From: Anaerolinea sp.
GTDB lineage: Bacteria; Chloroflexota; Anaerolineae; Anaerolineales; Anaerolineaceae
Assembly: GCA_020725865.1 (NCBI GenBank)
Contig: DYEC01000020.1
Coordinates: forward strand, 1 to 64,000
Reading direction: 5' to 3'
DNA: 64,000 nucleotides
Position 1 is the stretch's first letter. Every line of letters starts with the position of its first letter. Positions 1-43,832 of this stretch are shown here, one piece after another. Under the pieces are notes generated by a model that was not told the origin of the DNA, did not search any database, and saw only the letters and a list, made by a program, of their open reading frames with translations. Both the position numbers and the translations under genes were made by a program.

Positions 1-3000
1 CGGAGAAGGACCAGCCGGCGGCCGGGGTGGCGGTCAACTGGACGACATCGCCGTAGTGGTAGGAGGCCTGGTTGGGGTTCTTGGTGACCGTGCCGTTACC
101 GACGATGTTGACGGTGAGGGTGTAAGGGATTTGGGAGTAGGCGACGGAGGCGGTATGGTTGCTGGCGGGCATGGTCAGGGTGTTACTGCTGGGTGCGCTG
201 GTGCCGGTCCAGGAAGCGATCTGCCAGCCGGGGTCGGGGACAGCGGAGAGGGTGATAACTTCGCCGGCGACGAACTGACCGTTGGTGCTGCAAGCAGCGG
301 ACTTGGCTGGGGAGGCGGTCGGGTCACTGCCGTTGCCGGTGTGGCTGAGGGTGAGGGTGTAGCAGGTTGGAGATACAGCAGCGGTGGTAAATGACCAGGT
401 GACACCGGTTACTGTATCTATGTCATCTGATACAGTGGCATACCATTCGTATTCGGTGTTCTCCGAAAGACCTGTCCAGGAAACAGAGGCGTTGGCGCCA
501 TTTGCGACATTCTCTACTGTACCGATCAGAGAATACGGTACCGGTGTCTGGTATATCATGTCATAAGCCATATTCATCTGATCCGGAGAGGAGGTGATAA
601 ACGTATTCACATAGGGTGAATAGGTGGTGGCATAGATTGTGTCATTTGATGGCGAGAATCGTAATATGCGCATGTAACCATTGCCACCATTGGGGTAATC
701 CTGATAATCAGCCATCATGATGTGGATGGTATGTCCATCATCTCCTGTTTCCTGGCGATAAGCCGCACCGTCATTGGTGCTGTGCATGTGCCCGCATAAC
801 ATCAAGAATAGGTTGGGATTATCCTTGAGAGCGTTGTAGGTGGTCTGGTTGCTCCAAGTATTGTCAGTATTCAGAATGTCATGTTGGACAACAATGCCAC
901 GTCGGTTAGAGTAAGTTTTCAGCAACCCATCTGCCCAATTCAGGATATCCGATGAAGCGCTATATTGCAGATTGATGAGGATGAAATCCATACCCGATGC
1001 GCTAAACAGCGAGTAATTGTTGTAGTTGTTGCTGTCATAAGAGCCGCCGTACCAAGATTTGCCGCTGAAACGGGATGTGCCAAAATAGGTACTGTATGAA
1101 CCGTAAAGATCATGATTACCGGGTCCTACACTGTAGGGAATACTAGCTGCATCTAGTAAATCCATCGCTGCGTCTGCATTCTGCCACTGTGTTGTGCTGG
1201 TGGATGTGTTGACAATATCGCCGACATGTGTGACAAACACGATATTGCTGCTCGTTTTATTGTCTACAATCCATTGTGTCATGGAGGTGAATACTGCCGG
1301 ATAAGACTGAGACATGTTCTGGGTATCTGGGATTACCACTAGGGTGAAATCTTCACCAGTTATAGGTCCGGCCTCTCCCTTTTCGCGTCCGTAGAAACTG
1401 ACATCAAGTGTGTCTTCTGGGTCGTTGTCACTAACTGTAACTTCCAATGTCGGAGGGATGTAAACGTTTGTAGCAGCATCTGCAGGCTGGACCAGCACCG
1501 GCTGGTTAGGGGGGGCGTTTACCGGTATGATGCTAAAGTTTGCAGTGACCGATTTATTACCATTCATGGTGATTGACCAGGTGCCGTTGCCATTGTCTAC
1601 AAGGTCAGAAGCATTTGGACCGCTCCAGCTGGCAAACGCGTAGCCGCTGTTGGGGACGGGGGTTAGTGTTACAACAGTACCCTCGTTATAAGTGCCTCCT
1701 GCCGGGTTGAGTGTAACTGTTCCGTGTCCGTCATTGCCTGCTGACAGGGTGTAACGGGTTACCGAACCTGCATAAGTAACTGTCAGGTATGGACGGTAAG
1801 CTACAGTTGCCGCTTCACTGGAATATATGGTAACGCCATCGGTTCCGGTTGGGTAAAAGATCCAGCCCAAATTATCGCTGGGGTTGGCGGACCAGCGTTG
1901 AAGGCTTGCTGTAACATCAATCGAATAATTTGTGTCGGCAGAAGAGGCGGGTGCTTGAACGACTGGTGTGGCCCGGTACTCATCGCTTTGAACACCCTGA
2001 TCTCCGCCAAAGTTGTTATAAGTAACTGTCGAACCAGCCCATGAAACGAGCACTTCATACACATTTGCTGGATCTCCCTCCGGGGTTCCTGTAGGAGTTG
2101 AGTCAACCGTTCTGTAAGCTAACGCAGCGGATATTATCGTTGCGCCATCCGGGATGGGACCACCTTCAGAAGTGAATAGTTGTGTGAAGCGAATTAAGGC
2201 AAATTCATCTGTGGTTGTACCGGTATTATCGTCCCATTCCAGAGCAGTATTTGAACCGAAATTTGTGTCACCCTCGGTTGATCCACGAATGAACGTATCA
2301 TCTGTTCCAGTATAGCCCGAGACGCCATATTGGAAGGTGACTGTAATTTCATATCCCACCGTCCCGGCGACGGCAACATATACATCCGAAGCGCCATCGC
2401 TGGAGTGGACAATATCGCCGCTGAAGGTCCCCTCGGTTGCGCTATTCAAACGCACATAAATTGTAGTTGGGTTCACCACACCGCCTGTTTGGGGCAGTGT
2501 CAATGAGGAGTTGAAACTGCTGCCATCGGTTGAAAGCTCAAACCCGGAGGGTGCGCTGATGTTGATATCTGCTGTCAGGTTTTTGCCTGAGACGGTATAA
2601 GTTTGTGCGGCAGAGGGAACACCCGGCTGGGTGGAAAAGGTTGTCAGGGTACCGGCGGTAGTGATTTTGGGTCCACTACAGTAAGTAATGTTAAGTGTTG
2701 GTTTCGTGTACCCGGAAGTATTTTCTTTGGAGGCAACGATCCAGTAATCTTGGGTGCTGCTGGAGCCTGCATTATAGTTTTGCACTGTTAAGCCATAATT
2801 TGGCAGGACGCCGTCAATCCAGTCCTGAATGACAGCGACGCCGCTGGCGTTAAGATCAATGGTAACATTACCAGAGGCACTAAAGGTACTTGATGTAACG
2901 TTCCAAAGGTTGGTATTATAGCGGTCTGTTGAGGTATTGGCTGCACCGGCAGTGCCCCACGAGTTGGTACCGTCGTAAGTATTCCATGTGGCGGTGCTCT

Positions 3001-4552
3001 CGCTCCACGCCCGTCTCAAGTTATACAGGCTAAATGTGTAGGTTGAACTGTCCGTTACATAGAATGAGAGACTGGCAGCATTCACGATGGCGCCAGAAGG
3101 GATAACGCTCGTGTCCCATTTGAACAAACCGCCCTGTGGGTAGCTTTGGTAAGGACTCATTGTGACTGTGGTCTCGGAACCGTAGTTTGTTGAAGGCTGG
3201 GAGGATCTCATCCTGGTATCTGCGGTTGCGACCAGTGAAACATTAGTGCACGGTGACACGACAAAGTTCGCTATGATTGTCTTGTCCCCATCCATCGTGA
3301 TAGTAGCAGGGTTGGTATTTCCGGTCAGATCACCGGACCAGGAATCAAACGCATATCCCAAATCTGGCACCGCAGTCAAGGTGACAACCGTACCAGAAGT
3401 ATAGCTGCCGCCAGCCGGATTGAGTGTTACACTACCGCCTGCACTCGAATTCACTGTCAAGGTATAAAATTGGGTTGCCGTGCCGCTGACAGCAACTTCC
3501 TTGCGAGTGGCGCCGGTACTCTCGTGGGTGATGTTACCGCTGGAGGTACCCTCAGTAGAACGATTAAACCTTACATAGATGGTTGTAGGCGAAACCACAC
3601 CGCCTGTTGGCATCAGTGTAAGGGAAGAAGTAAAACCACTTCCGCTGGTGGTGGAGATTTCAAAATCGGCAGGGGCGGTAACGACAATGTTGTCTGTCAA
3701 ATTGTTTCCAGAAACTGTGTAACTCTGTTCAGCAGAGGGAACTCCTACCGGGCTGGTGAAAGTCGTTAATGTGCCTGTAGTCGTGATGGTCGGGATGCTG
3801 CTGGCCTCTTCTGCAAGCATGAAAACACTAGGTCCATATCCTTTATTACCTGCTGTCTGCTCTTGCACTCGGACTGTAAAATCTCCATCAGTGCCGGGTT
3901 GAATGCCTGTCCAGCGCGCAACATAGCCATTTGTAGTGTTATATCCGGTGCTAAAGTAAACGGAGTAATTGTCAATGACATTGACACCTGAAGTGCTGGC
4001 ATTGGTTGCTCCGTCAATGTCAGAGATAGTGAACCTGGAGATACGATCTCCGTAAGATGCATCATTTCTGTTGGCGGTAGTGGCGAAGGTGTACGTCTTA
4101 GCTGGGTTAAGTCCTGTAAATGTCATGTCAATGTAATACCCCGAGTTGCCATACTGGATTACGCCTGCCATATTGGCTTTGCTGTAGAAAGTATTATATG
4201 CATCTGTTCCCGAGCTAGGATATGTTCCCGATGATGTGTTCACAGATGGGTTACCCGAGGATGTAAATGTCACTGTAACACCAGTGGAAGCACCGGTAGC
4301 GTAGTTTTTCAACACACCGCTTGTGCTTCCCGCTGTGACCGTATAGGCTGTGGTGTTGCCTCCGGTGACGCCCGAACAGTCGTTATATGCTACCCAGGCA
4401 AAATCGGCTGCATGAACCTCAGTGAGCGGTTTTGCACCGAGCAATGAAAATACGATCATGAGGATGAGCAAAATCTGTCCAGTTATCCTAAAATAGTTAT
4501 CGGTGCGGTGATGATGGACGTGTTTATTGTAGAAATACTTTTGACTAGTCAT
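1..4552 (-). CDS. Giant secreted multidomain metallophosphoesterase (3' end outside window)
   Basis: The reading frame is open from the ATG at 4552 to the left edge (about 1517 codons seen). I checked the frame at 4552, 2299, 1327, 1120 and 796. A GGGAGG ribosome site lies 5 nt before the start. Residues about 22-48 form a signal peptide ending VHA. Then come an N-terminal beta-rich region, two copies of a beta-sandwich block carrying the motif YTVSGNNLT / YTVSGKNLT, two DNRLRE/CBM96-like regions (about 438-610 and 736-925), and at least four InlB-type bacterial repeats (about 363, 932, 1397, 1475; motif VTLNPAGG...GYAFxSWSG). A calcineurin-like phosphoesterase domain (about 1070-1300) shows PDTQN at 1075-1079, GDIV at 1111, GNHD at 1145 and GHMH at 1254. 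Known members of this fold are metal-dependent phosphoesterases. Export to the cell surface is inferred. The substrate is unknown. The gene is preceded by a cyclic-dinucleotide riboswitch, so expression is probably second-messenger controlled. Confidence 0.88.
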   Translation of the reverse strand, partial: MTSQKYFYNKHVHHHRTDNYFRITGQILLILMIVFSLLGAKPLTEVHAADFAWVAYNDCSGVTGGNTTAYTVTAGSTSGVLKNYATGASTGVTVTFTSSGNPSVNTSSGTYPSSGTDAYNTFYSKANMAGVIQYGNSGYYIDMTFTGLNPAKTYTFATTANRNDASYGDRISRFTISDIDGATNASTSGVNVIDNYSVYFSTGYNTTNGYVARWTGIQPGTDGDFTVRVQEQTAGNKGYGPSVFMLAEEASSIPTITTTGTLTTFTSPVGVPSAEQSYTVSGNNLTDNIVVTAPADFEISTTSGSGFTSSLTLMPTGGVVSPTTIYVRFNRSTEGTSSGNITHESTGATRKEVAVSGTATQFYTLTVNSSAGGSVTLNPAGGSYTSGTVVTLTAVPDLGYAFDSWSGDLTGNTNPATITMDGDKTIIANFVVSPCTNVSLVATADTRMRSSQPSTNYGSETTVTMSPYQSYPQGGLFKWDTSVIPSGAIVNAASLSFYVTDSSTYTFSLYNLRRAWSESTATWNTYDGTNSWGTAGAANTSTDRYNTNLWNVTSSTFSASGNVTIDLNASGVAVIQDWIDGVLPNYGLTVQNYNAGSSSTQDYWIVASKENTSGYTKPTLNITYCSGPKITTAGTLTTFSTQPGVPSAAQTYTVSGKNLTADINISAPSGFELSTDGSSFNSSLTLPQTGGVVNPTTIYVRLNSATEGTFSGDIVHSSDGASDVYVAVAGTVGYEITVTFQYGVSGYTGTDDTFIRGSTEGDTNFGSNTALEWDDNTGTTTDEFALIRFTQLFTSEGGPIPDGATIISAALAYRTVDSTPTGTPEGDPANVYEVLVSWAGSTVTYNNFGGDQGVQSDEYRATPVVQAPASSADTNYSIDVTASLQRWSANPSDNLGWIFYPTGTDGVTIYSSEAATVAYRPYLTVTYAGSVTRYTLSAGNDGHGTVTLNPAGGTYNEGTVVTLTPVPNSGYAFASWSGPNASDLVDNGNGTWSITMNGNKSVTANFSIIPVNAPPNQPVLVQPADAATNVYIPPTLEVTVSDNDPEDTLDVSFYGREKGEAGPITGEDFTLVVIPDTQNMSQSYPAVFTSMTQWIVDNKTSSNIVFVTHVGDIVNTSTSTTQWQNADAAMDLLDAASIPYSVGPGNHDLYGSYSTYFGTSRFSGKSWYGGSYDSNNYNNYSLFSASGMDFILINLQYSASSDILNWADGLLKTYSNRRGIVVQHDILNTDNTWSNQTTYNALKDNPNLFLMLCGHMHSTNDGAAYRQETGDDGHTIHIMMADYQDYPNGGNGYMRILRFSPSNDTIYATTYSPYVNTFITSSPDQMNMAYDMIYQTPVPYSLIGTVENVANGANASVSWTGLSENTEYEWYATVSDDIDTVTGVTWSFTTAAVSPTCYTLTLSHTGNGSDPTASPAKSAACSTNGQFVAGEVITLSAVPDPGWQIASWTGTSAPSSNTLTMPASNHTASVAYSQIPYTLTVNIVGNGTVTKNPNQASYHYGDVVQLTATPAAGWSFS

Positions 4553-4585
4553 TCGAGCCTCCCTGTCCTTCTGACAATGAACTTA

Positions 4586-4633
4586 AATTCAAGTGGCGCT
4601 TGGTGTTAAAAGCACAAGAAAGCCCCACTGAAT
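4586..4633 (-). promoter_or_regulatory. Stem-loop between riboswitch aptamer and start codon (probable expression platform)
   Basis: On the minus strand the arms ATTCAGTGGGGCTT and AAGCGCCACTTGAAT pair almost completely, with one bulge and one mismatch. The loop contains CTTTCTTGTGCT, which is complementary to the 5' strand of the upstream aptamer (AGCAC-GAAAG). Two mutually exclusive folds are therefore possible. There is only a weak T-rich stretch after the stem, so the mechanism (termination or another switch) is not settled. Confidence 0.5.
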
Positions 4634-4649
4634 TGTAGAGATTGATTAG

Positions 4650-4740
4650 GTGAAGCTTCGGCAACCCGACAATCTCGTTAGAGAGACTCGCGGCTTTGCG
4701 CCCCCATATTACTATGGGTTAGCTCTTTCGTGCTCCTGAA
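4650..4740 (-). promoter_or_regulatory. GEMM-I family cyclic-dinucleotide riboswitch aptamer
   Basis: Read on the minus strand, the region contains the conserved GEMM landmarks in order: CACGAAAGAGCTAACC, a hairpin CCATA-GTAA-TATGG with a GNRA loop, the invariant GGCGCAAAGCC (4692-4702), a second arm, and GGGTTGCCGAAGC (about 4655-4667). This matches the GEMM-I (c-di-GMP-I) consensus by eye. The base aligning with G20 of the Vc2 riboswitch reads A, a change known from the subgroup that responds to cyclic AMP-GMP. It sits about 100 nt before the start of the secreted phosphoesterase. The rest of the 408-nt gap between 4553 and 4960 is AT-rich; the 3' part near 4760-4860 probably holds the promoter, but I could not fix its boxes. 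Confidence 0.85.
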
Positions 4741-4960
4741 TACAGTAAGCATCTAACCCGTAAAGTGTTCTGTCAACGAGAATATAATACAAAATTATTA
4801 TTTGTTTGTCAAGTTAAGTTTGTGTTTATTGCGGAATTGTAATATTTATTTAGGTAGAACTTAGCCGGATGTGTTTTCATTTTTTATTCCCCTGAACAAA
4901 CCGATTTTGTAATGGCTTTCTATTGGGCATGTAACCGAACGGTGTTTCAGCGAAGGCTTC

Positions 4961-5782
4961 TTAATTTTTGATTGGCATTGTTGGTATATTGCTCATTAAA
5001 CTACGCAGCCGGTTTTGCTCTTCAGGAGGGAATAAAGGCAAAAGACGGCGAACAATGCGTACCGTGAGCGGGTGGGTACTGCCAACCAATGTCTGACGCA
5101 GCAGATAAGCAGCTTCAACTGGTGAGCGTTTGGCAAGAGCCTGTAAGATTTCAACCAGTTCGGTTTGCAAAATGGGAAGCGGCGATTTGAGAAGCGGTTC
5201 GATCATTCGAAACAATGGCGGCAGGTTCTCAAATTCCCGATCCTGTATGGCAGGCAGCATTGCCCGCAGGGCGATTTTTTGAACCGCGGTATTTTTATCT
5301 GCCAGCCATAAATGCAGAAGTTCAAACCAGTGCTCGGATTGTTCACGCCGCATGCGGTGTGCTCCATGCTCAAGTAATGCGCTCAGACTGACCGCCTCAC
5401 ATTCCGGCCGGCACCAGCGTTGCAAATAGCCGGTAATCATCTCGGGCGGTTTGGGGTCAATTTTTCCAAGTAGCAGCGCAGCCAAAAGACGTGGCTCCAG
5501 ATAGGGATCGCTCCAAAGGGTCTCAATCAATATCAGTGCTGCCTGTGGGTTTTCCCGGCAGAGCGGAGCCAATCCCTGTTCGACCTGGTGAATGACGAGC
5601 GCAGGCACGCGATAACTGGCTGGAAGTCTGGCGGAAGGCGATTCCTTGCCGGGACGAAATGTCCGGTCGCTGTAAAACTCCAGCAACTCGCGTAGTTCAG
5701 TTTGGAATTCCTGCGGGCGGGTAAATTTCCACGCGAGGCTGTTGACTTGTGCTTTCAGACGATTAAGCTGTACAGCAGGCAT
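4961..5782 (-). CDS. Helical (HEAT/DNA-alkylation-like) repeat protein
   Basis: This is a 273-residue protein with no signal peptide or membrane segment. It is made almost entirely of amphipathic helices with repeat-like periodicity, for example AALILIETLWSDPYLEPRLL followed by AALLLGKI, and further leucine-rich helix pairs about every 35-40 residues. This resembles HEAT repeats and the DNA-alkylation-repeat superfamily. No catalytic motif can be named. It starts 3 nt after proS on the same strand, so the two are probably co-transcribed and translationally coupled. A scaffold or protein-binding role is the cautious inference. Confidence 0.7.
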   Translation of the reverse strand: MPAVQLNRLKAQVNSLAWKFTRPQEFQTELRELLEFYSDRTFRPGKESPSARLPASYRVPALVIHQVEQGLAPLCRENPQAALILIETLWSDPYLEPRLLAALLLGKIDPKPPEMITGYLQRWCRPECEAVSLSALLEHGAHRMRREQSEHWFELLHLWLADKNTAVQKIALRAMLPAIQDREFENLPPLFRMIEPLLKSPLPILQTELVEILQALAKRSPVEAAYLLRQTLVGSTHPLTVRIVRRLLPLFPPEEQNRLRSLMSNIPTMPIKN

Positions 5783-5785
5783 ATT

Positions 5786-7234
<1,449 letters not shown>

Positions 7235-7254
7235 TTAATGGCAACAGGATGGTT

Positions 7255-7797
7255 TTAAGAATGGGTTTGCTTAGACAACATGGCAACAGCTTGATGAACA
7301 TTTTCGGCAAATGAGAGCAAGGCTTTTTCCTGTTCGGAAACTGCGTTGCCCATTTCCCTGTAAAAAGTGTTAAATACCGTTTTCCAGGCATCACCAATCA
7401 GGATTAAAGGACACGGCGGGATAGATTGAATCAGCAGGCGGTTCCAGAAGAGAAGAATTTCAGTAAACGTTCCCGGACCGCCCGGTAAAGCCAGTGCCGC
7501 ATCGGCACTGCTGACCAGGGTGTCCAATCGCTCCATCAGTGTTGGACGGCGCCATTCCTCAAGTACCCAGGGATTGGCGGCACGCCGACGCCAGTTCTCC
7601 ACCTCTTCACATGTTACCCCGATGACATGGCCGCCGGCTTCCGCGGCGCCGCGGGATACAGCTTCCATCGTACCCATGTAACCGCCGGTGATAACGGTGT
7701 GGCCTGCTATAGCCAGCAGTTTGCCAAGTTGCAGGGCTTCTTCATAAGCGGATTCACCGGGTTGAGGCCGTGCGCTTCCAAAAACAGTTACCTTCAT
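7255..7797 (-). CDS. LOG-family protein (TIGR00730-like putative nucleotide phosphoribohydrolase)
   Basis: The Rossmann-like protein of about 180 residues shows the two family hallmarks GGYMGTMEA (about 38-46) and PGGPGTFTE (about 105-113), the second being the PGGxGTxxE catalytic motif. Characterised relatives cleave nucleoside monophosphates such as cytokinin ribotides or AMP; the substrate here is unknown. I prefer the ATG at 7797, but a TTG at 7803 with a better-spaced AAGG is possible. A TATAAT box on the minus strand near 7838-7843 is a likely -10 element. First gene of a probable operon with proS. Confidence 0.85.
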   Translation of the reverse strand: MKVTVFGSARPQPGESAYEEALQLGKLLAIAGHTVITGGYMGTMEAVSRGAAEAGGHVIGVTCEEVENWRRRAANPWVLEEWRRPTLMERLDTLVSSADAALALPGGPGTFTEILLFWNRLLIQSIPPCPLILIGDAWKTVFNTFYREMGNAVSEQEKALLSFAENVHQAVAMLSKQTHS

Positions 7798-7881
7798 AAG
7801 CAACTCTGTACCTTGAGTTTTGTCTGACAGGTTTCAATTATACCTGCAAATTGTCACGAGGGAAAAACCAACCTGCAGTCA

Positions 7882-7890
7882 TGCTATACT
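7882..7890 (+). promoter_or_regulatory. Extended -10 promoter for a probably leaderless mRNA
   Basis: TGCTATACT (TGn plus TATACT) ends 7 nt before the ATG at 7898. Transcription would start at or next to the start codon, and no Shine-Dalgarno sequence is present. No convincing -35 box is seen, as is common for extended -10 promoters. Confidence 0.5.
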
Positions 7891-7897
7891 TACCAGT

Positions 7898-9982
7898 ATG
7901 TGGGGCTCAAAGGTTGTGTCCAATTTTCGGCGAATTCGTTTTCCAGCCTGGAGCGTACCTCTCTGTCTTCTGGGGCTGGTAACAGTCAGTTATGGTTTGC
8001 TCGTCAATCATTTGGGGTTTTACTGGGATGACTGGGCAAAGACGCTGGTACATCGTTTGTTTGGCTTGAACGGATACTGGTCGTATTACGCTGAAGACCG
8101 CCCGTATTCATCCTGGACGCATATTCTCTTTATTCCGCTTCTGGGCGATTCGCCAGTGAACTGGCAAATTTTTGTGCTGGTATTGCGCTGGTTAACGGCG
8201 GTGGCGATCTGGTGGTTTTTGCGCGGTTTATGGCGGGATGCCGAATGGCAGGCTGTTTTGACAGCGGCACTGTTTTCTGTTTGTCCGGTTTTTACTCATC
8301 AGGCGATTGCCGTAACATTCCACCAACAATGGCTGCAATATGTGCTGTGTTTTGTTTCGTTTGCCGCTATGGTACAGGCAAATCGAAGCATCAGGCGGTT
8401 TTGGTTATGGACTGTTTTATCGGTGATTACATTAATGATGCAGTTATTGATCACCGAATATTTTATCGGTGTGGAGCTTATCCGCCCGCTGGTGCTGTGG
8501 TATTTGCTTGCCGCACAACCGTGGCAAAAAAGGTTTCGTAGTTGGATCAGGCAGTACAGCCCATATTTGTTGATTGCAACGGGGTATATCCTCTGGCGAT
8601 TGTTTTTCATTCAACTGCCCAATGAAGATCCTTATAAGGCACAGACTTTATATGATTTTTTCAATGCGCCCATGGATACGTTGAGTCGTCTGTGGCTGGT
8701 TGTTTGGAAAGATACCCTATATGTGTTGGTCACCCACTGGTATCGGACGTTTGATGTGCACTTGTTTGATGAAAAAATGCAACCTTTTGCGGTGGTTTCC
8801 TGGCTGGCGGCGATTGCAATTGCATTGGGGCTGACTTTTTATTTTTATCGCTTGAGAATGGATGATGAACAAAGCAGAGGGCAGACGGGTAAAACCAGGC
8901 AAATGATTTTGTTAGGGCTGGCGGCATCATTACTGGGCATGTTGCCTGCCTGGATCACCGGGCGGCAGGTGGTTTTTGATTATCATTCCGACCGTTATGC
9001 CCAACCGGCAATGTTCGGTATCAGCCTTTTATCGGTTGGCTTTTTTAATTGGATTTCTCAAAGGCGACTGCAAAGAAGCGTTTTGTTAAGCATCCTGATT
9101 GCGCTGGCGGTTGGGTTTAATATGCGTTTGACCAATGATTACCGCTGGCAGTGGGTGGAGCAGACCCGTTTTTACTGGCAGCTTTACTGGCGTGCGCCAT
9201 ATATTCAACCAAATACTGCGATTATCAATGAAAAAGAACCGCTGGCGGACCAGGGACTATTTTCCACTTCGGCGGCGATCAACCTGTTATATCCGCAACC
9301 ACCGGAGTTTGAAGAACATGGAAGATTGGCTTACTGGCTTTATTCGTTTTACCCCCGTTATGCCAGCGGCTTGCCTGAGGATTTGCGATTTAGTTTTCGT
9401 ACCCAGTTTCGAACACTCAAATTTGAGGGTGGTTCTCCCAACACATTGCTGATTTTCTATGACCTGAGCAAGACAAACTGCCTTTGGGTACTTCGCCCCG
9501 ATGATGCCGGTGACCCAGAACTGCCGCGCATCACCGCAGAAGCGATCCGAGCTGCCAACCCTGCGCTCATTTTCCCCCAGCCTGTGTCTGATGATTATCC
9601 CCCTCGTGATCTCTTCGGTTCAGAGCCGGAACACAACTGGTGTTACTTTTTTCAAAAGGCTGATCTGGCGCGTCAATTTGAGAATTGGGAAAGAGTGGCA
9701 GAGCTAGGGGATCAGGCGCGGCAAGCTGGACTTTCACCGTCCAATACATCTTCCAATGCGCCGCATGAATGGCGGCCGTTTATCGAGGGATATGCACATG
9801 TTGGCCGTTGGGATGAGGCGCGTCAATTGACTCTCCAGGCGGCCGAAAAAGGGGAGCGTTATCTGGTGTGGTTATGCCGGGTGTGGGAACAGATGGGGGA
9901 AGGGATGGAAGGAAACTTACAGTGGATGGAGCAGATTCACCAAACTAGGGCTGAGATGAACTGCCAAAAACTTGGCTTTTAG
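7898..9982 (+). CDS. Polytopic membrane protein, GT-C glycosyltransferase-like
   Basis: The frame could open at 7820, but the ATG at 7898 fits the promoter position better and gives about 694 residues. Roughly ten hydrophobic segments occupy the N-terminal two thirds. The first membrane segment is followed by FYWDDW, an acidic motif at the position where GT-C glycosyltransferases and PMT/ArnT-like enzymes carry their first catalytic aspartates. The C-terminal about 200 residues are soluble and end in helices that look TPR-like (GYAHVGRWDEARQLTLQAAE). A role in lipid-linked sugar transfer is an inference; the donor and acceptor are unknown. It converges on the sulfatase gene with an 18-nt gap. 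Confidence 0.65.
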   Translation: MWGSKVVSNFRRIRFPAWSVPLCLLGLVTVSYGLLVNHLGFYWDDWAKTLVHRLFGLNGYWSYYAEDRPYSSWTHILFIPLLGDSPVNWQIFVLVLRWLTAVAIWWFLRGLWRDAEWQAVLTAALFSVCPVFTHQAIAVTFHQQWLQYVLCFVSFAAMVQANRSIRRFWLWTVLSVITLMMQLLITEYFIGVELIRPLVLWYLLAAQPWQKRFRSWIRQYSPYLLIATGYILWRLFFIQLPNEDPYKAQTLYDFFNAPMDTLSRLWLVVWKDTLYVLVTHWYRTFDVHLFDEKMQPFAVVSWLAAIAIALGLTFYFYRLRMDDEQSRGQTGKTRQMILLGLAASLLGMLPAWITGRQVVFDYHSDRYAQPAMFGISLLSVGFFNWISQRRLQRSVLLSILIALAVGFNMRLTNDYRWQWVEQTRFYWQLYWRAPYIQPNTAIINEKEPLADQGLFSTSAAINLLYPQPPEFEEHGRLAYWLYSFYPRYASGLPEDLRFSFRTQFRTLKFEGGSPNTLLIFYDLSKTNCLWVLRPDDAGDPELPRITAEAIRAANPALIFPQPVSDDYPPRDLFGSEPEHNWCYFFQKADLARQFENWERVAELGDQARQAGLSPSNTSSNAPHEWRPFIEGYAHVGRWDEARQLTLQAAEKGERYLVWLCRVWEQMGEGMEGNLQWMEQIHQTRAEMNCQKLGF

Positions 9983-11706: not shown

Positions 11707-13776
11707 CTAGTCCTCTTTTGCCTGCTGAATTTCCTTCTGTCGTGCAGCAACAATTTCGCCAGTGATGTGAGCCGGCACAGTCTCATAGTGCGAAAACTCC
11801 ATCGTAAAGATGCCACGACCACCGGTGATGGAACGCAACTGCGTAGTATAGCGCAGCATTTCAGCCAGCGGTACCTGGGCTGAGATGGTCGAGCGACCTT
11901 TTTCGGTTTCCATGCCCTGCACGCGCGCCCGGCGGGTGTTCAGATCGCCAAGCACATCGCCCATGTTGGCTTCAGGAACAATGATTTTGACGTTCATAAT
12001 AGGTTCTTCCAGTACCGGTCCGGCATCTTTGAACGCCAGCTTGAAGGCTTCACGTCCGGCGATTTCAAAGGCAATGGGCTTGGAATCCACCGGATGTTCT
12101 TTGCCATCAAATACGGAAACACGGATGCCATGCACCGGATAACCTGCAAGGATGCCCTCTTTCATTGTATTACGGATGCCTTTTTCAATTGCTGGAATGT
12201 AGCTTGAGGATATGGCGCCGCCGAAAATGTCGTTGACAATTTCAAAATCACTTTCCTGCAGGGGTTCAATACGCAGGTGAACTTCACCGAATTGCCCGGC
12301 GCCGCCGGTCTGTTTTTTGTGACGGTACATCGCCTGAGCTTTTTTGGTGATGGCTTCCAGATAGGGAACTTTTGGCACGTCAATCAGGAGATTAACCTGG
12401 AATTTACTCTCAGCACGACGAATGGCAACTTCAATGTGTTGGTCACCCATACCCTGCAGAATGGTCTGGTTGGTTGCTGCTTCGTTGTACCAAGTAAGGG
12501 TCAGGTCTTCCTCACACAAACGAGTTAATGTAGGCGTGATTTTAGCCGAGTCAGCTTGAGTCTTGGGCATGATTGCCACGCGGTAGAGGGCGTGTGGGTA
12601 TTCAGGCACGGGCAGGGTGAGCGGATGCCCCCGGTCACAGAAGGTATTCCCGGTTGAGGTTTCGCTCAATTTTGGCACCATTCCAATATCGCCGGCATGG
12701 ATGGTTTTTACTGCGATGGTTTCCTTACCCCGCGGCACATACAGGGTGCCGAGGCGTTCTTCTAGCCCTTTTGTTTGGTTCCAAACGCGGCTATCAGAGG
12801 CAATCATTCCGGAATAAACCCGGAAATAGGTTTGTTTGCCAACATAAGGGTCGGCAGTGGTTTTCCATACATAAGCGGCTAGGGGACCAGCATCCGAAGC
12901 ATTGAGTTCTTCATTGCCGTCTTTCCCGCTGGCAGTGGTAGTAACATCACTAGGAGCGGGTAACAGATCAACAATGGCATCCAGCAATGGGAAGATACCC
13001 ATTTCGGCGCCGCCTGCGGCTACAAATACCGGGATGAAATTGCCCTGCATGACGACTTTACGCAGCCCGCGCAAAATTTCTTCTGGCGAGAGCTGAAGAG
13101 TTTCCAGGTATTTTTCCATCAGCGCATCCTCGCCTTCAGCGGCGGCTTCTACAAGTTGCTGGTAGGCACTTTCGGCGGCAGCTTTAAACTCTGCGGGGAT
13201 ATCCACAGCCTTTTTCCCATCACCAGGATAAGCTTTCATGGTTAGGAGGTCAATCACACCCTGAAAATCAGTCCTTTCGCCCCAGGGAAGCTGAACGGGA
13301 ATCAATCGAGTTTCGGAATATTCCTGGATAGATGCCAGCGCTTTTTGGAAATTGGCATTTTCACGATTCATTTTGTTGATGAGCACAAAACGCGGCAGCT
13401 TAAATTTATTACAGTAATCCCAGGCGATTTCAGTTCCCACCTCGCGCCCGGAGACTGAGTCAATGACAACAATCGCACTGTCGGCAACACGCAGGGCAGA
13501 GATAACTTCGCCGATGAAATCATTGTACCCGGGAGTGTCAAGCAAGTTGATCTTGACATCGCGGTACTCAATGGGGATGACTGTTGAATAAAGCGAAATC
13601 CCTCGTCGGATTTCTTCTTCATCATAGTCGGATACTGTGCTCCCGTCTTCTATTTTTCCCAGGCGCGTGGTGACACCTGTGCAATGGAGAAAAGCCTCCG
13701 TGAGCATGGTCTTGCCGGCGCTGCTATGAGATACTAATGCGACATTGCGAATATGCTCAGCCGTATATTCTTTCAT
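11707..13776 (-). CDS. Elongation factor G-like GTPase (FusA paralogue)
   Basis: The 689-residue protein has the full EF-G layout: GTPase domain, domain II, and domains III-V ending in the RNP-like fold (LRSITGGRGIFTMEF). G1 is HSSAGKTML in place of the usual HIDAGKTT of translocating EF-G. G3 is DTPGYNDF where EF-G has DTPGHVDF, and G4 is NKMNRE. These departures place it with the EF-G-like or FusA2 type proteins, whose role in ribosome translocation or recycling is uncertain. A strong promoter lies 42 nt upstream and a terminator follows, so it is a single-gene unit. Confidence 0.85.
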   Translation of the reverse strand: MKEYTAEHIRNVALVSHSSAGKTMLTEAFLHCTGVTTRLGKIEDGSTVSDYDEEEIRRGISLYSTVIPIEYRDVKINLLDTPGYNDFIGEVISALRVADSAIVVIDSVSGREVGTEIAWDYCNKFKLPRFVLINKMNRENANFQKALASIQEYSETRLIPVQLPWGERTDFQGVIDLLTMKAYPGDGKKAVDIPAEFKAAAESAYQQLVEAAAEGEDALMEKYLETLQLSPEEILRGLRKVVMQGNFIPVFVAAGGAEMGIFPLLDAIVDLLPAPSDVTTTASGKDGNEELNASDAGPLAAYVWKTTADPYVGKQTYFRVYSGMIASDSRVWNQTKGLEERLGTLYVPRGKETIAVKTIHAGDIGMVPKLSETSTGNTFCDRGHPLTLPVPEYPHALYRVAIMPKTQADSAKITPTLTRLCEEDLTLTWYNEAATNQTILQGMGDQHIEVAIRRAESKFQVNLLIDVPKVPYLEAITKKAQAMYRHKKQTGGAGQFGEVHLRIEPLQESDFEIVNDIFGGAISSSYIPAIEKGIRNTMKEGILAGYPVHGIRVSVFDGKEHPVDSKPIAFEIAGREAFKLAFKDAGPVLEEPIMNVKIIVPEANMGDVLGDLNTRRARVQGMETEKGRSTISAQVPLAEMLRYTTQLRSITGGRGIFTMEFSHYETVPAHITGEIVAARQKEIQQAKED

Positions 13777-13817
13777 GGACAGATAACCCTTCTTTACATA
13801 AAAATTGCAGACACCCT

Positions 13818-13846
13818 ATTTTAAGGGAAGTTGTTATTATTGTCAA
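13818..13846 (-). promoter_or_regulatory. Sigma-70 promoter of the EF-G-like gene
   Basis: On the minus strand, TTGACA (13841-13846) and TAAAAT (13818-13823) are separated by 17 nt, about 40 nt upstream of the ATG at 13776. Confidence 0.75.
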
Positions 13847-13877
13847 AGTTTGCAGGTGGTTTTTCGTATTCTCATGG

Positions 13878-15308
13878 TCAGTCAGATTCTCTTTCGCCCC
13901 TTTTTCGTCGGCTTTTTTCAGTACGCAGAGTCCCTGTCCCGACGCGATAGGAGGGTATATCCATTGCAACAATTGTGCAAATCCGCTTATCTAACATTCG
14001 GCTGCGGATGCGCGGGTCCAGTTCTTCCAGCGTGCTGCTCGAGGTAATGACGGTTGACAGTCGGGCGATGTACCGGTAATTAAAGATCTGATACAGTTTT
14101 TCACGCGCCCAGGGGGTTGCGCTTTGTGTTCCTAAATCATCCAGAATCAAGAGTGGCGACATGCGCACTTGATCAAACAAATGATCATAGGATATATTGC
14201 TGCTGGGCCCAAACGTGGCGCGCAGGTGATCTAACAAATCTGGTACAACAACAAACATTGGGGATTCTCCCAGCGAATGGCGATAGTTTCCAATTGCGGC
14301 AGCCAGGTGTGTTTTGCCTACTCCATAGGCGCCCAGAATCACCAACCAGCCGCGTGGGTTTTCAGCAAATTGGTGTGCCGTCTTGAAGGCTTTTTCGATC
14401 ATCTGTTGCTGATCAGGTGTTAATTTTTCCTGCTCACGCAAGCTGAAATTTCCAAAAGTTTGTTCCTGATGGAGGTGCAACACCGAGAGTGGGGGGTGGC
14501 TGAGGTCTTCTGCTTTGCGCCGGTAATCTGGGGCAGTGATTTTAACCTTGCTAACTAGCTCGGTATCCAGCAAACGGGACACAATACGTCCGTCAATTTC
14601 TTTCAAATCCTGATTGGTAGTAATGACCGTCGGTAGACGGTTTATATAACGATGATTGATAATCTGGAATAACTTTTCTGCTGCCCAAGCAGTGGTATTT
14701 TGGGTTCCCAAATCATCCAGAACGAGCAATTGGATGTTGCGTATTTCATTAAAGCGTTCTTCAAAGGTAGTGTCCGCCGAGTCGAATGAAAAACGTAGCC
14801 AGTCGAGAAGATCCGGAACCGTCAAGAATAGCGTTGGCACACCCAATGAGACGGCATGGTTTGCGATTGCTGCTGCAAGGTGAGTTTTGCCACAGCCATA
14901 CCCCCCCATCAACAATAACCAGCCTTCCAGCCGACGGGCGAACTGAGTTGCCTGATTTAATGCCATTTCCAGTGTACGGGTCTGTTCTGCACCCAGATTG
15001 ACCAGCCCCTGTGGATTGAAAGTCTCAAATGTCATGTGTCGAAACGAGTCCAGATTGCTCAGCCGAAATAGTCTTTGTTGCATGATCTGGTTAACCTGGC
15101 TATGACGACATGTGCAAATCTGGAGTTTACCGAAATCCGGATGGTCAATTGGTAAATCCTGGCGGATGAAACCAACCCCTTTGCAAATTGGACAGTTTGG
15201 GTCACCGAATGTGGCTGACTGTTTGGGTTCAACGTTCGATGAATTCTGCAAACTCGCCTTCAAGGTAGCGTCGGCGACTTGCTTCAGTGTTTGAGCGATC
15301 TTTGGCAT
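13878..15308 (-). CDS. DnaC/IstB-type helicase-loader ATPase with two tandem AAA+ modules
   Basis: The 476-residue protein starts with a four-cysteine zinc-like module (C39, C42, C65, C67). Two complete DnaC/DnaI-like AAA+ ATPase modules follow. Module 1 has Walker A GGYGCGKT (135-142) and Walker B LLVLDDLG (194-201). Module 2 has Walker A GAYGVGKT (326-333) and Walker B LLILDDLG (386-393). Each is followed by a TVIT sensor-1 strand and an arginine-rich segment (SRLLD / SRMLD). Ordinary DnaC/DnaI loaders have one such module. It is the third gene of an operon with dnaB and a DnaD-like gene, and its start, with a GAGG ribosome site, overlaps the DnaD-like gene by 80 nt. Helicase loading at origins is strongly suggested by context. 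Confidence 0.88.
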   Translation of the reverse strand: MPKIAQTLKQVADATLKASLQNSSNVEPKQSATFGDPNCPICKGVGFIRQDLPIDHPDFGKLQICTCRHSQVNQIMQQRLFRLSNLDSFRHMTFETFNPQGLVNLGAEQTRTLEMALNQATQFARRLEGWLLLMGGYGCGKTHLAAAIANHAVSLGVPTLFLTVPDLLDWLRFSFDSADTTFEERFNEIRNIQLLVLDDLGTQNTTAWAAEKLFQIINHRYINRLPTVITTNQDLKEIDGRIVSRLLDTELVSKVKITAPDYRRKAEDLSHPPLSVLHLHQEQTFGNFSLREQEKLTPDQQQMIEKAFKTAHQFAENPRGWLVILGAYGVGKTHLAAAIGNYRHSLGESPMFVVVPDLLDHLRATFGPSSNISYDHLFDQVRMSPLLILDDLGTQSATPWAREKLYQIFNYRYIARLSTVITSSSTLEELDPRIRSRMLDKRICTIVAMDIPSYRVGTGTLRTEKSRRKRGERESD

Positions 15309-15933
15309 GTCGTCCTCTTTCTTGCCATGAATTCAAAATGGCTTCCACATAACGCCAGCGGCGAATGTTGTTGGCTACAGCGATGCGCATGGCATCTTCA
15401 ATCCAATCAGCGGGATACTTTTGCTCGGCATCTCGCAGGACATCAGCAACCATGGGCGTAAGTGGACCAAAGTTTTCTTCGTAGAGCCGGAAGATGTTTG
15501 GTCGCTCCTGTTGCAGAGTAACAGGTAAACGGCTGACTTGTTCCGGTGTCCATTCGCCGAGTTCAAGTGCCTGGATGGCAGCTCGCCCGCGCGCTGAATT
15601 CAGTACATATACTGCTTGTTGAGTGCTACCGCCAAGGGGCTGTCCTTTAAGCAGGGTGCCGCGTAACACGGCGCGTTCTAAGCCTTCCTGAAGTGCGGCT
15701 TCGGCAGCAGTGCTTGTTGTACCCAATCCTTCCATAAATGACCTGTCATTGACGAAATCCTGCCAGGTGATGTAGCGGATGCTGCCTTCTTGCTGTCCCA
15801 GAAACCAGAAAGCATAAAGGGTGATTTTGAGTTCTGCCAGATGATCAATGGCTGGCAATAGTTCACTGAAAAACTGAGCCGGCAGCGAAACCATGCGTAT
15901 TTTTCCTGCCGGAAAACCTTTGAATGAACTCAT
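15229..15933 (-). CDS. DnaD-domain replication initiation protein
   Basis: The 234-residue protein has an N-terminal winged-helix-like region (about 15-80) and a C-terminal DnaD/DnaB2 domain (about 145-215). Motifs are IFRLYEENFGPLTP, WIEDAMRIAVANNIRRWRYV and EAILNSW, matching the YxxxIxxxNxR-type helix of DnaD family proteins. In Firmicutes DnaD remodels origin DNA and brings in the helicase and its loader. It starts 10 nt after dnaB with an AGAGGATAG ribosome site and overlaps the loader gene. The three genes therefore make a compact helicase-loading operon. Confidence 0.85.
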   Translation of the reverse strand: MSSFKGFPAGKIRMVSLPAQFFSELLPAIDHLAELKITLYAFWFLGQQEGSIRYITWQDFVNDRSFMEGLGTTSTAAEAALQEGLERAVLRGTLLKGQPLGGSTQQAVYVLNSARGRAAIQALELGEWTPEQVSRLPVTLQQERPNIFRLYEENFGPLTPMVADVLRDAEQKYPADWIEDAMRIAVANNIRRWRYVEAILNSWQERGRHAKDRSNTEASRRRYLEGEFAEFIER

Positions 15934-15943
15934 CTATCCTCTT

Positions 15944-17332
15944 TCAACTTCGAACCGGTATGCTCGCGGTAGCAGCGTTGTCAAAACGCGCCAGATTGTG
16001 CAGAAACACCAGCTCAATGCCGGGGTGCGTTGGACCGTTCCGGTGTTTGGCAACGATGATTTCGGCGATATTCTGACGTGGGCTATCTCGATCCAACATA
16101 TCTGGGCGATGGATAAACATGACGACATCTGCGTCTTGTTCCAGACTGCCTGACTCGCGCAAATCGGACAGCACTGGTTTTTTATCTGCGCGCTGTTCGA
16201 CAGCGCGGGAGAGTTGGGCTGCTGCCAGAACGGGTACATTCAGCTCGCGTGCCAAAACTTTTAGGTTCCGTGAGATGTATGAAACTTCCTGGACGCGATT
16301 TTCTGTGCGTATATCTCCACTCATGAGTTGCAAATAGTCCACAATAATCAAATCCAGCTGATATTCCAAATGCAGGCGGCGGCACTTGGTGCGCAATTGT
16401 AGCGGTGTAATGGCAGGTGTATCGTCCAGGAAAATCTGCGTATCTCCCAGTACCTCGATCGCATGGGTGAAGAGGGGTAAATCTTCTTCAGAGAGCTTGC
16501 CACTGCGCAGACGTTGTGTATCAATCCCGGTTTCCTGAGCAATCAGACGCTGCACCAGTTGCTCATTCGACATTTCCAGCGAGAAAATTGCAACATGTTT
16601 CTTATGCTTCTGGGCGGCATTTTTGGCAACAGATAGCAAAAAGCCAGTTTTACCAGAGCCGGGACGTCCAGCAACAATTAGTAAATCGGATTTTTGCAAG
16701 CCTCCTAGCAACCGATCTAGGTCGATCAGTCCGGTTGGGACACCGTAAATTTCTTCAGCGCGCCGGGAAAGAAGACTAATGCGGTCATAGACATCGCTCA
16801 ATACCTGCTGGATGGGCTGCAAGTCGTGGCGGATGCGTCGTTCGCTGATGCCAAAGATTGCCTTTTCTGCTTCGCCGAGAACGGTATCAATGGATTTTTG
16901 TTGGTCATAAGCCAGCTTTGCCAGTTCATTAGCCGAGGATAGCATCCGGCGGCGGATGGCGGTCTCTTCAATGATACGACCGTATGCCTCTGCATGAAGC
17001 GAAGTGGGAGTCTGGTTAATCAGGGACATGATATATGCGCTGCCGCCCACTTCATCGAGCTGATTCTTTTGCTCCAGGGTTTCGCAGACTGTTAAGAAGT
17101 CAATGGGAATGCGGTGTTCGTGTAAATAGTTGAAAGTTTCCCATATCCAGCGGTTACGCACAATGTAAAAATCGTCTGCCTGAAGAAATTGGGCAACTTC
17201 GTAGTATGTTTCAGGATTTATCAAGATTGCCCCCAGTACAGCCTCTTCCGCTTCACGACTGTGAGGCTGAACCTGTATTGCCTGAGACTGAACATCACTC
17301 AAGGAAAATTGTTCGCTCATACGATTAGCCAT
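15944..17332 (-). CDS. dnaB: Replicative DNA helicase DnaB
   Basis: The ring helicase unwinds DNA at the replication fork. The N-terminal domain begins PHSREAEEAVLGAILINPE. The RecA-like domain shows Walker A AGRPGSGKTG, Walker B-like DLIIVDYLQLM, and SQLSRAVEQRADKKPVLSDL with RESGSLEQDADVV. The frame extends to 17371, but that ATG lies within or before the upstream terminator, so ATG 17332 (MANRM) or 17320 (MSEQF) is more likely; I use 17332. No clear ribosome site precedes either. It heads the operon with the DnaD-like gene and the double DnaC-like gene. No intein is present. Confidence 0.92.
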   Translation of the reverse strand: MANRMSEQFSLSDVQSQAIQVQPHSREAEEAVLGAILINPETYYEVAQFLQADDFYIVRNRWIWETFNYLHEHRIPIDFLTVCETLEQKNQLDEVGGSAYIMSLINQTPTSLHAEAYGRIIEETAIRRRMLSSANELAKLAYDQQKSIDTVLGEAEKAIFGISERRIRHDLQPIQQVLSDVYDRISLLSRRAEEIYGVPTGLIDLDRLLGGLQKSDLLIVAGRPGSGKTGFLLSVAKNAAQKHKKHVAIFSLEMSNEQLVQRLIAQETGIDTQRLRSGKLSEEDLPLFTHAIEVLGDTQIFLDDTPAITPLQLRTKCRRLHLEYQLDLIIVDYLQLMSGDIRTENRVQEVSYISRNLKVLARELNVPVLAAAQLSRAVEQRADKKPVLSDLRESGSLEQDADVVMFIHRPDMLDRDSPRQNIAEIIVAKHRNGPTHPGIELVFLHNLARFDNAATASIPVRS

Positions 17333-17336
17333 GGAT

Positions 17337-17367
17337 AAAAAACCGGAGCATCCATACCGCCCCGGTT
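17337..17367 (-). terminator. Rho-independent terminator of the bifunctional-nuclease gene
   Basis: On the minus strand AACCGGGGC and GCTCCGGTT form a 9 bp stem including one G-T pair, followed by TTTTTT. It begins 11 nt after the nuclease stop and abuts the dnaB start region. Confidence 0.8.
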
Positions 17368-17377
17368 GCAATGTTTA

Positions 17378-17986
17378 TTATTTTTGGGGGTCGGGTTTGT
17401 CTTTGTCTGTATCGCTGTCACCTTCTTTTTTATCCGGGTTGTCTTCATCAAGGTTCAAGTTTTGCAGAAAGTCCTCAAATATAGAAAGACGATCTTCGCT
17501 TTCTTCCGGTAATTCTTCAACCGGTTCAGGTGGCGGGGGAACCAGGGGTTGTTGCTGAGGTTGTTCGGCGATATCACGTTCCGGAACGATACCGGCGACA
17601 TCCAGTACATCCTGAGCAACATATACCGGTACATGGAAACGAACCGCTAAAGCTAATGCATCCGAGGGGCGTGAATCAACGTCAAGTGTCTGCCCGTTTA
17701 CTTCCAGAACCAGATTCCCATAGAAAACATCATCGCGCAAGGCGATAATTTCAACCCGAACTAAGCGGGCATTCAAGGCGTGGATGACATTTTTGAGTAA
17801 ATCATGTGTTTGTGGTCTTGCCACTTCAACTTCTTGAAGGGAAATTGTAATCGCTTCGGCTTCATACGGACCAATCCAGATGGGAAGATACCGCTCTGCA
17901 TTCAGCTCTCGCAATACAACAATCCGTTGTTGATTTGTCAGACTCACTCGGACACTATCAATCACAACTTCTATCATTCTGGGCAT
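17378..17986 (-). CDS. Bifunctional nuclease (DUF151) domain protein
   Basis: The frame opens at 18022, but the ATG at 17986 (MPRMIEVV) has a GGAAGGTG ribosome site 6 nt upstream and matches the usual start of this family. Residues 1-130 form the DUF151 domain, with LPIWIGPYEAEAI, and SRPSDALALAVR as its conserved signature. The remaining 70 residues are an acidic, proline-rich tail. Domain members have reported DNase/RNase activity, but the physiological role is unknown. It has its own terminator, and its promoter should lie in the intergenic region shared with the phasin gene. Confidence 0.85.
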   Translation of the reverse strand: MPRMIEVVIDSVRVSLTNQQRIVVLRELNAERYLPIWIGPYEAEAITISLQEVEVARPQTHDLLKNVIHALNARLVRVEIIALRDDVFYGNLVLEVNGQTLDVDSRPSDALALAVRFHVPVYVAQDVLDVAGIVPERDIAEQPQQQPLVPPPPEPVEELPEESEDRLSIFEDFLQNLNLDEDNPDKKEGDSDTDKDKPDPQK

Positions 17987-18089
17987 AAACACCTTCCTGA
18001 TCTTAAAAGAACGAGGCTGCATCGTGCTGGTGTTTTTATTCTAACACGGGCGACACCTAGACGCAACACGAATCAAAGAATTGTTCATC

Positions 18090-18138
18090 TTGACAAAATA
18101 ACGCGGTGCGTTATAATATGAATAACGCACCGCGTTAT
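18090..18138 (+). promoter_or_regulatory. Strong promoter overlapped by a nested double palindrome (operator)
   Basis: TTGACA (18090-18095) and TATAAT (18112-18117) are 16 nt apart. The 17-bp quasi-palindrome ATAACGCGGTGCGTTAT (18098-18114) fills the spacer and its reverse complement ATAACGCACCGCGTTAT (18122-18138) covers the predicted start site. The outer flanks TTGACAAAATAA and TTATTTTGTCAA are also inverted, so the whole about 65-bp region is a palindrome. A dimeric repressor of the TetR or similar type bound as two dimers is the obvious inference. No regulator gene is adjacent. Confidence 0.8.
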
Positions 18139-18176
18139 AATTTATTTTGTCAATTTTGATATATGTGGAGGTTGAA

Positions 18177-18536
18177 ATGACCGCTGAAGGTAAAAGCACT
18201 GAGAGAGAAAAACAGAAAGAGGCGCGTTCGCCACTTTACGAGGTTTCACGAAAAGTATTGTTGGCTGCGGTAGGAGCAGCCGTGATCGCCCAAGACGAGA
18301 TAGAGAATTTTGTCGAGCGTCTGGTGGAACATGGCGAAATGGCAGAGAAGGAAGCCCGCAAGTTGGCGCAGGAGGTTCTGGAGCGCCGCGAAAAATTGGA
18401 GCGGGAGCGCCGGATGGAACGAGAGCGCCGCTCTGGCGGTGTGACCAAAGCTGATATAGAAGCCTTGAATGCCAAAATTGCTGAATTGAACAAAAAGATA
18501 GAAGAACTCAGGAAAGAGCGCTCTGCTCAGGAATAA
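18177..18536 (+). CDS. Phasin-like coiled-coil protein
   Basis: The ATG at 18177 has GGAGG 6 nt upstream and is preferred over a start at 18147. The 119-residue protein has a short hydrophobic helix (SRKVLLAAVGAAVIAQDEI), then EKEARKLAQEVLERREKLE, a charged helix, and a C-terminal coiled coil (IAELNKKIEELRKER). This is the layout of phasin-family / PHA-granule regulator proteins (COG3937-like). Some relatives bind polyhydroxyalkanoate granules, others are of unknown function. Its promoter is covered by a large operator, so expression is probably tightly repressed. Confidence 0.75.
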   Translation: MTAEGKSTEREKQKEARSPLYEVSRKVLLAAVGAAVIAQDEIENFVERLVEHGEMAEKEARKLAQEVLERREKLERERRMERERRSGGVTKADIEALNAKIAELNKKIEELRKERSAQE

Positions 18537-18720
18537 TGTGGGTCGGTATTATGTTGCGACGGGTGTTTTGAAAAACTCAATGCGCCTGAGTAGATTTTCT
18601 TTGGATTTTCAAGGTGTCTTTGGCTAAGAAATCCCACCCCGAATCTTTTGAGTTATGGGGTGTAAGTTTCTGTTGGTAGGATATGAAAGCTTAAAATTAT
18701 TCAAATTTCCCTTGAAATAG

Positions 18721-18749
18721 TTGACAGGCAAAGACGCCGCCTTTATAAT
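18721..18749 (+). promoter_or_regulatory. Sigma-70 promoter of the rplU-rpmA-rpmE cluster
   Basis: TTGACA and TATAAT (18744-18749) are separated by exactly 17 nt. The start site would be near 18756, leaving a leader of about 115 nt before rplU with inverted repeats (CCCCGG/CTGGGG-type), a possible ribosomal-protein leader. In the 184 nt between the phasin stop and this promoter I see only a weak hairpin (CACCCC...GGGGTG, about 18645-18665) that may end the phasin transcript. Confidence 0.85.
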
Positions 18750-18870
18750 TATGTGTTGCCTTACCCCGGCGAAAATGCTGGGGTGTATATATGTATCCCC
18801 AACTTCCCCACAGCCAGGCGTCGTGAAAGCTGCGCAGGGCTGACGGTGAAGTGAAGATTGGAGAAAAGGA

Positions 18871-43665: not shown

Positions 43666-43737
43666 AGGCGACGATGGGATTTGAACCCATGATCAGGGTT
43701 TTGCAGACCCTTGCCTTAGCCGCTTGGCCACGTCGCC
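43666..43737 (-). tRNA. tRNA-Cys (GCA)
   Basis: The acceptor arms GGCGACG/CGTCGCC pair, the anticodon loop reads CTGCAAA with anticodon GCA, and the T arm has GGGTTCAAATCCC. CCA is not encoded. It lies 22 nt downstream of tRNA-Gly on the same strand. Confidence 0.96.
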
Positions 43738-43759: not shown

Positions 43760-43832
43760 AGCGGGCAACGAGACTCGAACCCGTGACCTTCTCCTTGGCA
43801 AGGAGGTGTTCTACCAACTGAACTATGCCCGC
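43760..43832 (-). tRNA. tRNA-Gly (GCC)
   Basis: The acceptor arms GCGGGCA/TGCCCGC pair, the anticodon loop reads TTGCCAA with anticodon GCC, and the T arm has GGGTTCGAGTCTC. CCA is not encoded. First of a two-tRNA unit. Confidence 0.96.

Follow-up and report, generated by a model that had tools for sequence, protein, structure and literature searches.

A GEMM-I (c-di-GMP-I) riboswitch carrying adenine rather than guanine at Vc2 position 20 was found in the leader of a gene for a giant secreted phosphoesterase, on the minus strand of the window, i.e., the 64,000-nucleotide stretch of an Anaerolinea sp. genome (contig DYEC01000020.1) that we analyzed. The identity of this element as a real GEMM-I riboswitch with A20 was confirmed. 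On balance, we somewhat favor the reading that this single short-P3 aptamer is a c-di-GMP ON switch, in which A20 relaxes the choice between c-di-GMP and cGAMP. The ON direction, the ligand and the relaxed specificity are features that we infer from the layout of the leader, the enzymes encoded in the genome and the bases of the ligand pocket.

The original prediction had proposed a GEMM riboswitch at this site without naming the strand, and an Rfam search (cmscan) bore this out: RF01051 matched window positions 4657-4734 (minus strand) over its full length (model positions 1-87) with 57.4 bits and an E-value of 1.4e-8, against a gathering score of 35 bits. In the whole 3.1-Mb genome, this was the only RF01051 match above the cut-off, the runner-up scoring 16.1 bits. 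The Rfam alignment, together with an alignment with 68 related aptamers, placed A at Vc2 position 20 (window 4724), a position in contact with one of the ligand's nucleobases, so that the predicted substitution stands. Position 20 corresponds to position 11 of the Rfam model and precedes a two-pair stem (model 12-13; pairs 21-46 and 22-45). Another register for this base was considered and ruled out by that stem and by gap-free alignment with relatives, among them two aptamers of a related genome (G016), which read AAAGGGCAAAC (C14:22171) and AAAGAGCAAAC (C14:12620) at this place. Positions 21, 22, 45, 46, 47 and 92 are all canonical in the Rfam alignment. By both alignments, G21 (4723) and C22 (4722) are the canonical partners of the C46 side, C46 and A47 lie at 4698 and 4697, and C92 lies at 4661, where pairing with the ligand's second guanine is predicted, a contact described for C75 in the numbering of PMC6274999. 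The element resembles the usual GEMM-I class in its three-way junction, its GNRA loop on P2 (GUAA), the bases G21, C46, A47 and C92, and a score well above the cut-off. It differs in A20 and in a short P3 that lacks the tetraloop receptor, a usual feature of P3 in GEMM-I aptamers.

The gene downstream (2..4552, minus strand, ATG at 4552) is an open frame of at least 1517 codons that is cut off by the contig start. Its product has a signal-like N-terminus, as judged by sequence, four Flg_new_2/InlB-B repeats, DNRLRE domains and a calcineurin-like phosphoesterase domain (779..1342, minus strand; E 1.7e-7), whose motif columns PDTQ, GD, GNHD, QH and GHMH are invariant in five homologues. These features agree with the secreted phosphoesterase that had been predicted. 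A search for solved structures related in sequence to the phosphoesterase returned none at E 0.01. The N-terminal domain has homologues in 7 of 301 genomes of the order, and no GEMM-I was detected in the stretches searched upstream of the homologues in G199, G128, G210, G192 and G227, some of which were short.

The leader is laid out on the minus strand as a strong promoter-like site (4812-4784), the aptamer and the phosphoesterase gene. The promoter-like site is of the sigma-70 type (TTGACA-17-TATTAT, -35 at 4812-4807 and -10 at 4789-4784) and has 11 of 12 consensus bases, with transcription expected to start near 4777. About one above-threshold site is expected in the region by chance, so that its support comes from quality and position and not from the count. 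P1 is formed by GGAGC (4732..4736) and GCUUC (4652..4656), and the latter strand is common to P1 and to a predicted terminator hairpin, GAAGCUUCAC...GUGGGGCUUUC (4618..4659), of 10 pairs and -9.7 kcal/mol for the hairpin by itself. The U tract behind it, UUGUGCUUUU, is weak, and a separate scan of the same place gave a smaller terminator-like stem. Equivalent hairpins of 10 pairs lie at equal distance in two leaders of G016, so that in three homologous leaders the hairpin spans -3 to +38..+40 relative to the aptamer end. The P1 strands in G016 are GAGGC or GGGGC opposite GCCUC, and the window has A-U at the third P1 pair where each G016 copy has G-C. Among 68 of the 69 aptamers collected from this and related genomes, a terminator overlapping the aptamer end was observed for 9 of 11 short-P3 aptamers, a set chosen by eye from the sequences, versus 9 of 57 others.

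As the 3' strand of P1 is also part of the predicted terminator, bound ligand would be expected to turn the gene ON. In the mechanism that we favor, GCUUC (4656-4652) would pair downstream in the absence of ligand to form an intrinsic terminator, while a bound cyclic dinucleotide would hold P1 (GGAGC/GCUUC), block the terminator and allow transcription of the gene. This would be the logic described for pilM of Geobacter, a cGAMP-sensing ON switch in which terminator and aptamer are mutually exclusive (PMC9262584). With the poor U tract of the window (CTTGTGCTT), termination may be inefficient, and competing folds are predicted for the longer window leader. When the ribosome site is included, the lowest-energy structure of this leader is a different one, with P2 and P3 broken by the two pairings described next; forcing P1 and P3 made the whole leader about 10 kcal/mol less stable in calculations without ligand. 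In one alternative fold, GGGUUAG (4759-4753) pairs with the aptamer sequence CUAACCC (4722-4716), the 5' side of P2, and may represent an anti-aptamer pairing; the leader sequences of G016 showed no such pairing. In a second alternative fold, the P3 strand GAGUCUCUCU (4689-4680) pairs with a Shine-Dalgarno-like site, AGGGAGGCUC (4555..4564, minus strand), in a duplex of -14.1 kcal/mol.

This second fold raises an alternative in which control acts on translation, either by itself or in addition to termination, and P3 covers the ribosome site until the aptamer folds. The perfect pairing of 10 bases (G-U pairs counted), a ribosome site that is wholly buried in the free ensemble and the weak U tract of the window are consistent with such an arm, which, if present, would also be ON in sense. 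However, in both G016 leaders the lowest-energy fold predicted has the terminator hairpin beside intact P2 and P3 with no pairing between P3 and the ribosome site, and the window ribosome site is mostly paired even when P1 and P3 are forced. An OFF switch might be proposed as well, as another GEMM-I (Cd1) is OFF according to PMC9262584, or a switch that has decayed. Against all of these stand the strand that P1 and terminator have in common and the intact pocket, and we consider that translational, OFF or decayed control is very unlikely to be the explanation. A decayed aptamer in particular was rejected, since the other pocket bases are intact.

The bearing of A20 itself was assessed across relatives. 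In a sample of 61 genomes (that of the window and 60 others), 27 contained a total of 69 GEMM-I aptamers, with G at position 20 in 58, A in 9 and C in 2. All nine A20 aptamers retain G21, C46, A47 and C92. Wider counts used a fixed pattern in which G21 and C46 are required and position 20 may be A or G; among 147 genomes of the family, 10 of 44 such sites have A20, and among 396 genomes of the class, a sample that overlaps that of the family, 13 of 99. Membership in the Chloroflexota has indirect support from G169, a genome placed in the order of the window, whose A20 sequence and GGDEF contig coordinates are identical to those of the Anaerolineae bacterium isolate Centralia_MAG_396. Position 20 departs from G in 11 of the 69 aptamers, as opposed to variation in 0 to 2 at positions 21, 46, 47 and 92 (G21 0, A47 0, C46 1, C92 2), and thus A20 looks tolerated or selected rather than decayed. 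One relative, G016, offers a natural pair: two paralogues separated by about 10 kb, each with a short-P3 GEMM-I upstream, one with A20 (12620-12696) and the other with G20 (22171-22249). The window protein matches the A20-linked copy at 67% in the phosphoesterase region and at 61% in the N-terminal region, versus 59% and 50%, respectively, for the G20-linked copy. In G234, a nearly identical P2 was found with G20, ahead of a different secreted protein. Locus L297 encodes two giant secreted paralogues, of 2870 and 2241 amino acids (781-9393 and 12123-18848), each with its own GEMM-I leader and with a phosphoesterase-like region, DNRLRE domains and Ig/cadherin-like repeats.

Like the Geobacter GEMM-Ib cGAMP aptamers (pilM, pgcA; PDB 4YAZ), the window aptamer has A20, a short P3 and a GNRA loop, and its predicted terminator would exclude the aptamer. 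Unlike the Geobacter type (AUACUAAACC...CGGAAAGCC), which has C21-G46 and U22.G45, it has G21-C46 and C22-G45. We searched the named genomes of a collection for sites that combine A20 with a short loop other than GAAA, which yielded at least 119 stretches, and 80 loci were read. Among the matches listed, these loci held at least 96 A20 sites: 73 with C21 U22, mostly from Geobacter, Geomonas and relatives, 4 with C21 C22, and 19 with G21 C22 as in the window, from several phyla. Thus the Geobacter-type C21, which is absent from the window, occurs in 77 of these 96 listed sites. In the crystal structure, C15-G40 (positions 21-46) lies beside A14 (position 20), as stated in PMC6274999. A Geobacter cGAMP switch has been reported to become a switch for c-di-GMP upon the A20G change (PMC6456294), and point mutations in lower P2 have been reported to affect both how tightly ligand is bound and which of c-di-GMP and cGAMP is preferred (PMC9262584). 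A natural A20 aptamer from Desulfobacca acetoxidans, as described in PMC9481103, gained cGAMP binding with perhaps slightly lower affinity for c-di-GMP. It resembles our case in that close G20 homologues occur in the same genome, as in G016, and differs in being joined to a cobalamin riboswitch and in having been probed in-line. The c-di-GMP-I-GGC family (RF03167) likewise has a short P3 and is the best model for the A20 homologue of G016, albeit at 54.1 bits, below the cut-off of 59, but its consensus has G47 where the window has A47. In the reading that we favor, the window aptamer would be able to bind cGAMP in vitro.

We also examined which cyclic dinucleotide synthases are encoded in these genomes. 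A DNA pattern for Hypr GGDEF domains gave three matches in the 61 genomes; as these all fell outside open GGDEF frames, they were not counted. The pattern is insensitive, since it showed Ser or Thr in one out of three genomes of the Geobacter type, and the window genome, G016, G742, G743 and G744 were therefore analyzed by profile searches. DncV or Hypr-type enzymes, to which the original prediction had pointed, did not turn up in the window genome: all eight canonical GGDEF domains have Asp at the Hypr position (Ser348 is given as the Hypr mark in PMC8835794), two further GGDEF domains are degenerate, one EAL domain is present, and no SMODS (DncV-type) match was obtained in the assembly, which is 99% complete in 26 contigs and so may still lack a synthase gene. 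G016 had Asp in all 12 canonical domains of the 14 GGDEF domains found, and no SMODS match; 5 of the 61 genomes have one. The GGDEF domains of three further A20-bearing genomes, G742, G743 and G744 (labeled Anaerolineae, Caldilineales and Chloroflexi, with 7, 1 and 10 domains), were all Asp. A positive control, Geobacter sp. AOG1, showed one Ser and one Thr among the 16 GGDEF domains read of 20 found. Within our reading, c-di-GMP would be the likeliest cellular ligand because it is the only cyclic dinucleotide with synthases found in the genome. Since known cGAMP-making enzymes were not found, the response to c-di-GMP is most likely retained, perhaps in a less strict form, and A20 in an otherwise canonical pocket would loosen the discrimination against cGAMP rather than convert the aptamer into a cGAMP switch.

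A true cGAMP sensor, in which 3',3'-cGAMP from an unrecognized enzyme controls a gene tuned to it by A20, might be argued for from A20 in an intact pocket, the short P3 and GNRA loop that Geobacter-type switches share, the ON direction of pilM (PMC9262584), and the paralogues of G016 that stand behind A20 and G20 switches, the window protein being nearer the A20 copy. Nevertheless, the pair is the canonical G21-C46 and not C21-G46, no Hypr residue occurs in any canonical domain of the window genome (8), G016 (12), G742 (7), G743 (1) or G744 (10), and no SMODS match was obtained in either the window genome or G016. A cGAMP-only reading, therefore, is weakened by the lack of two features that accompany it in Geobacter, the C21-G46 pair and a Hypr synthase, and appears unlikely. 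The control by cGAMP or a relaxed set of dinucleotides that had originally been proposed is accordingly divided: relaxed specificity is plausible in light of the A20 literature, while a dedicated cGAMP sensor is disfavored by the missing C21-G46 pair, Hypr residue and SMODS match. If cGAMP were nonetheless the ligand, a synthase of an unrecognized type would have to exist. A broader scheme, that Chloroflexota use cGAMP or a mixture of c-di-GMP and cGAMP from a synthase that is neither Hypr nor DncV, read by A20 GEMM-I aptamers (often in tandem or paired with G20) for large secreted proteins, is quite doubtful. Alternatively, A20 might be neutral and the element an ordinary c-di-GMP switch, with position 20 drifting as adenine is tolerated. 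The scattered occurrence of A20 in related aptamers, family and class fits such drift, as does the report that cGAMP riboswitches can bind c-di-GMP via a protonated pocket adenine (PMC9262584, citing Keller et al.). However, the excess of variation at position 20 over the other pocket positions hints at a functional difference, and five of the nine A20 aptamers have a second GEMM-I in tandem; we regard neutrality as rather unlikely. Our preferred reading remains an ON switch for c-di-GMP whose specificity is relaxed. A20 is commonly taken as the mark of a cGAMP switch, and it occurs here in bacteria whose genomes yielded no known cGAMP synthase in our searches. With nine such aptamers in the window genome and its relatives, the rest of their pockets intact, the issue becomes whether A20 alone or the 21-46 pair is the decider. 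The top-ranked literature matches, from a coverage that mostly omits subscription journals, included no paper on A20 GEMM-I aptamers in Chloroflexota.

Finally, several observations were made in passing. Tandems of A20 with G20 aptamers lie at G016:C18:33301-33563, G016:C18:95634-95889, G032:C35:35907-36143 and G023:C346:3020-3186, and in a further tandem, at G047:C1:2991443-2991705, the A20 aptamer has both G20 and C20 partners; A20/G20 tandems could possibly serve as two-ligand or graded switches. The two C20 aptamers, at G047:C1:2991443-2991540 (locus L049) and G049:C9:10280-10384 (locus L054), both on the minus strand, are canonical at positions 21, 46, 47 and 92. Elsewhere in the window, two consecutive tRNA genes were observed at 43666-43737 and 43760-43832 on the minus strand.
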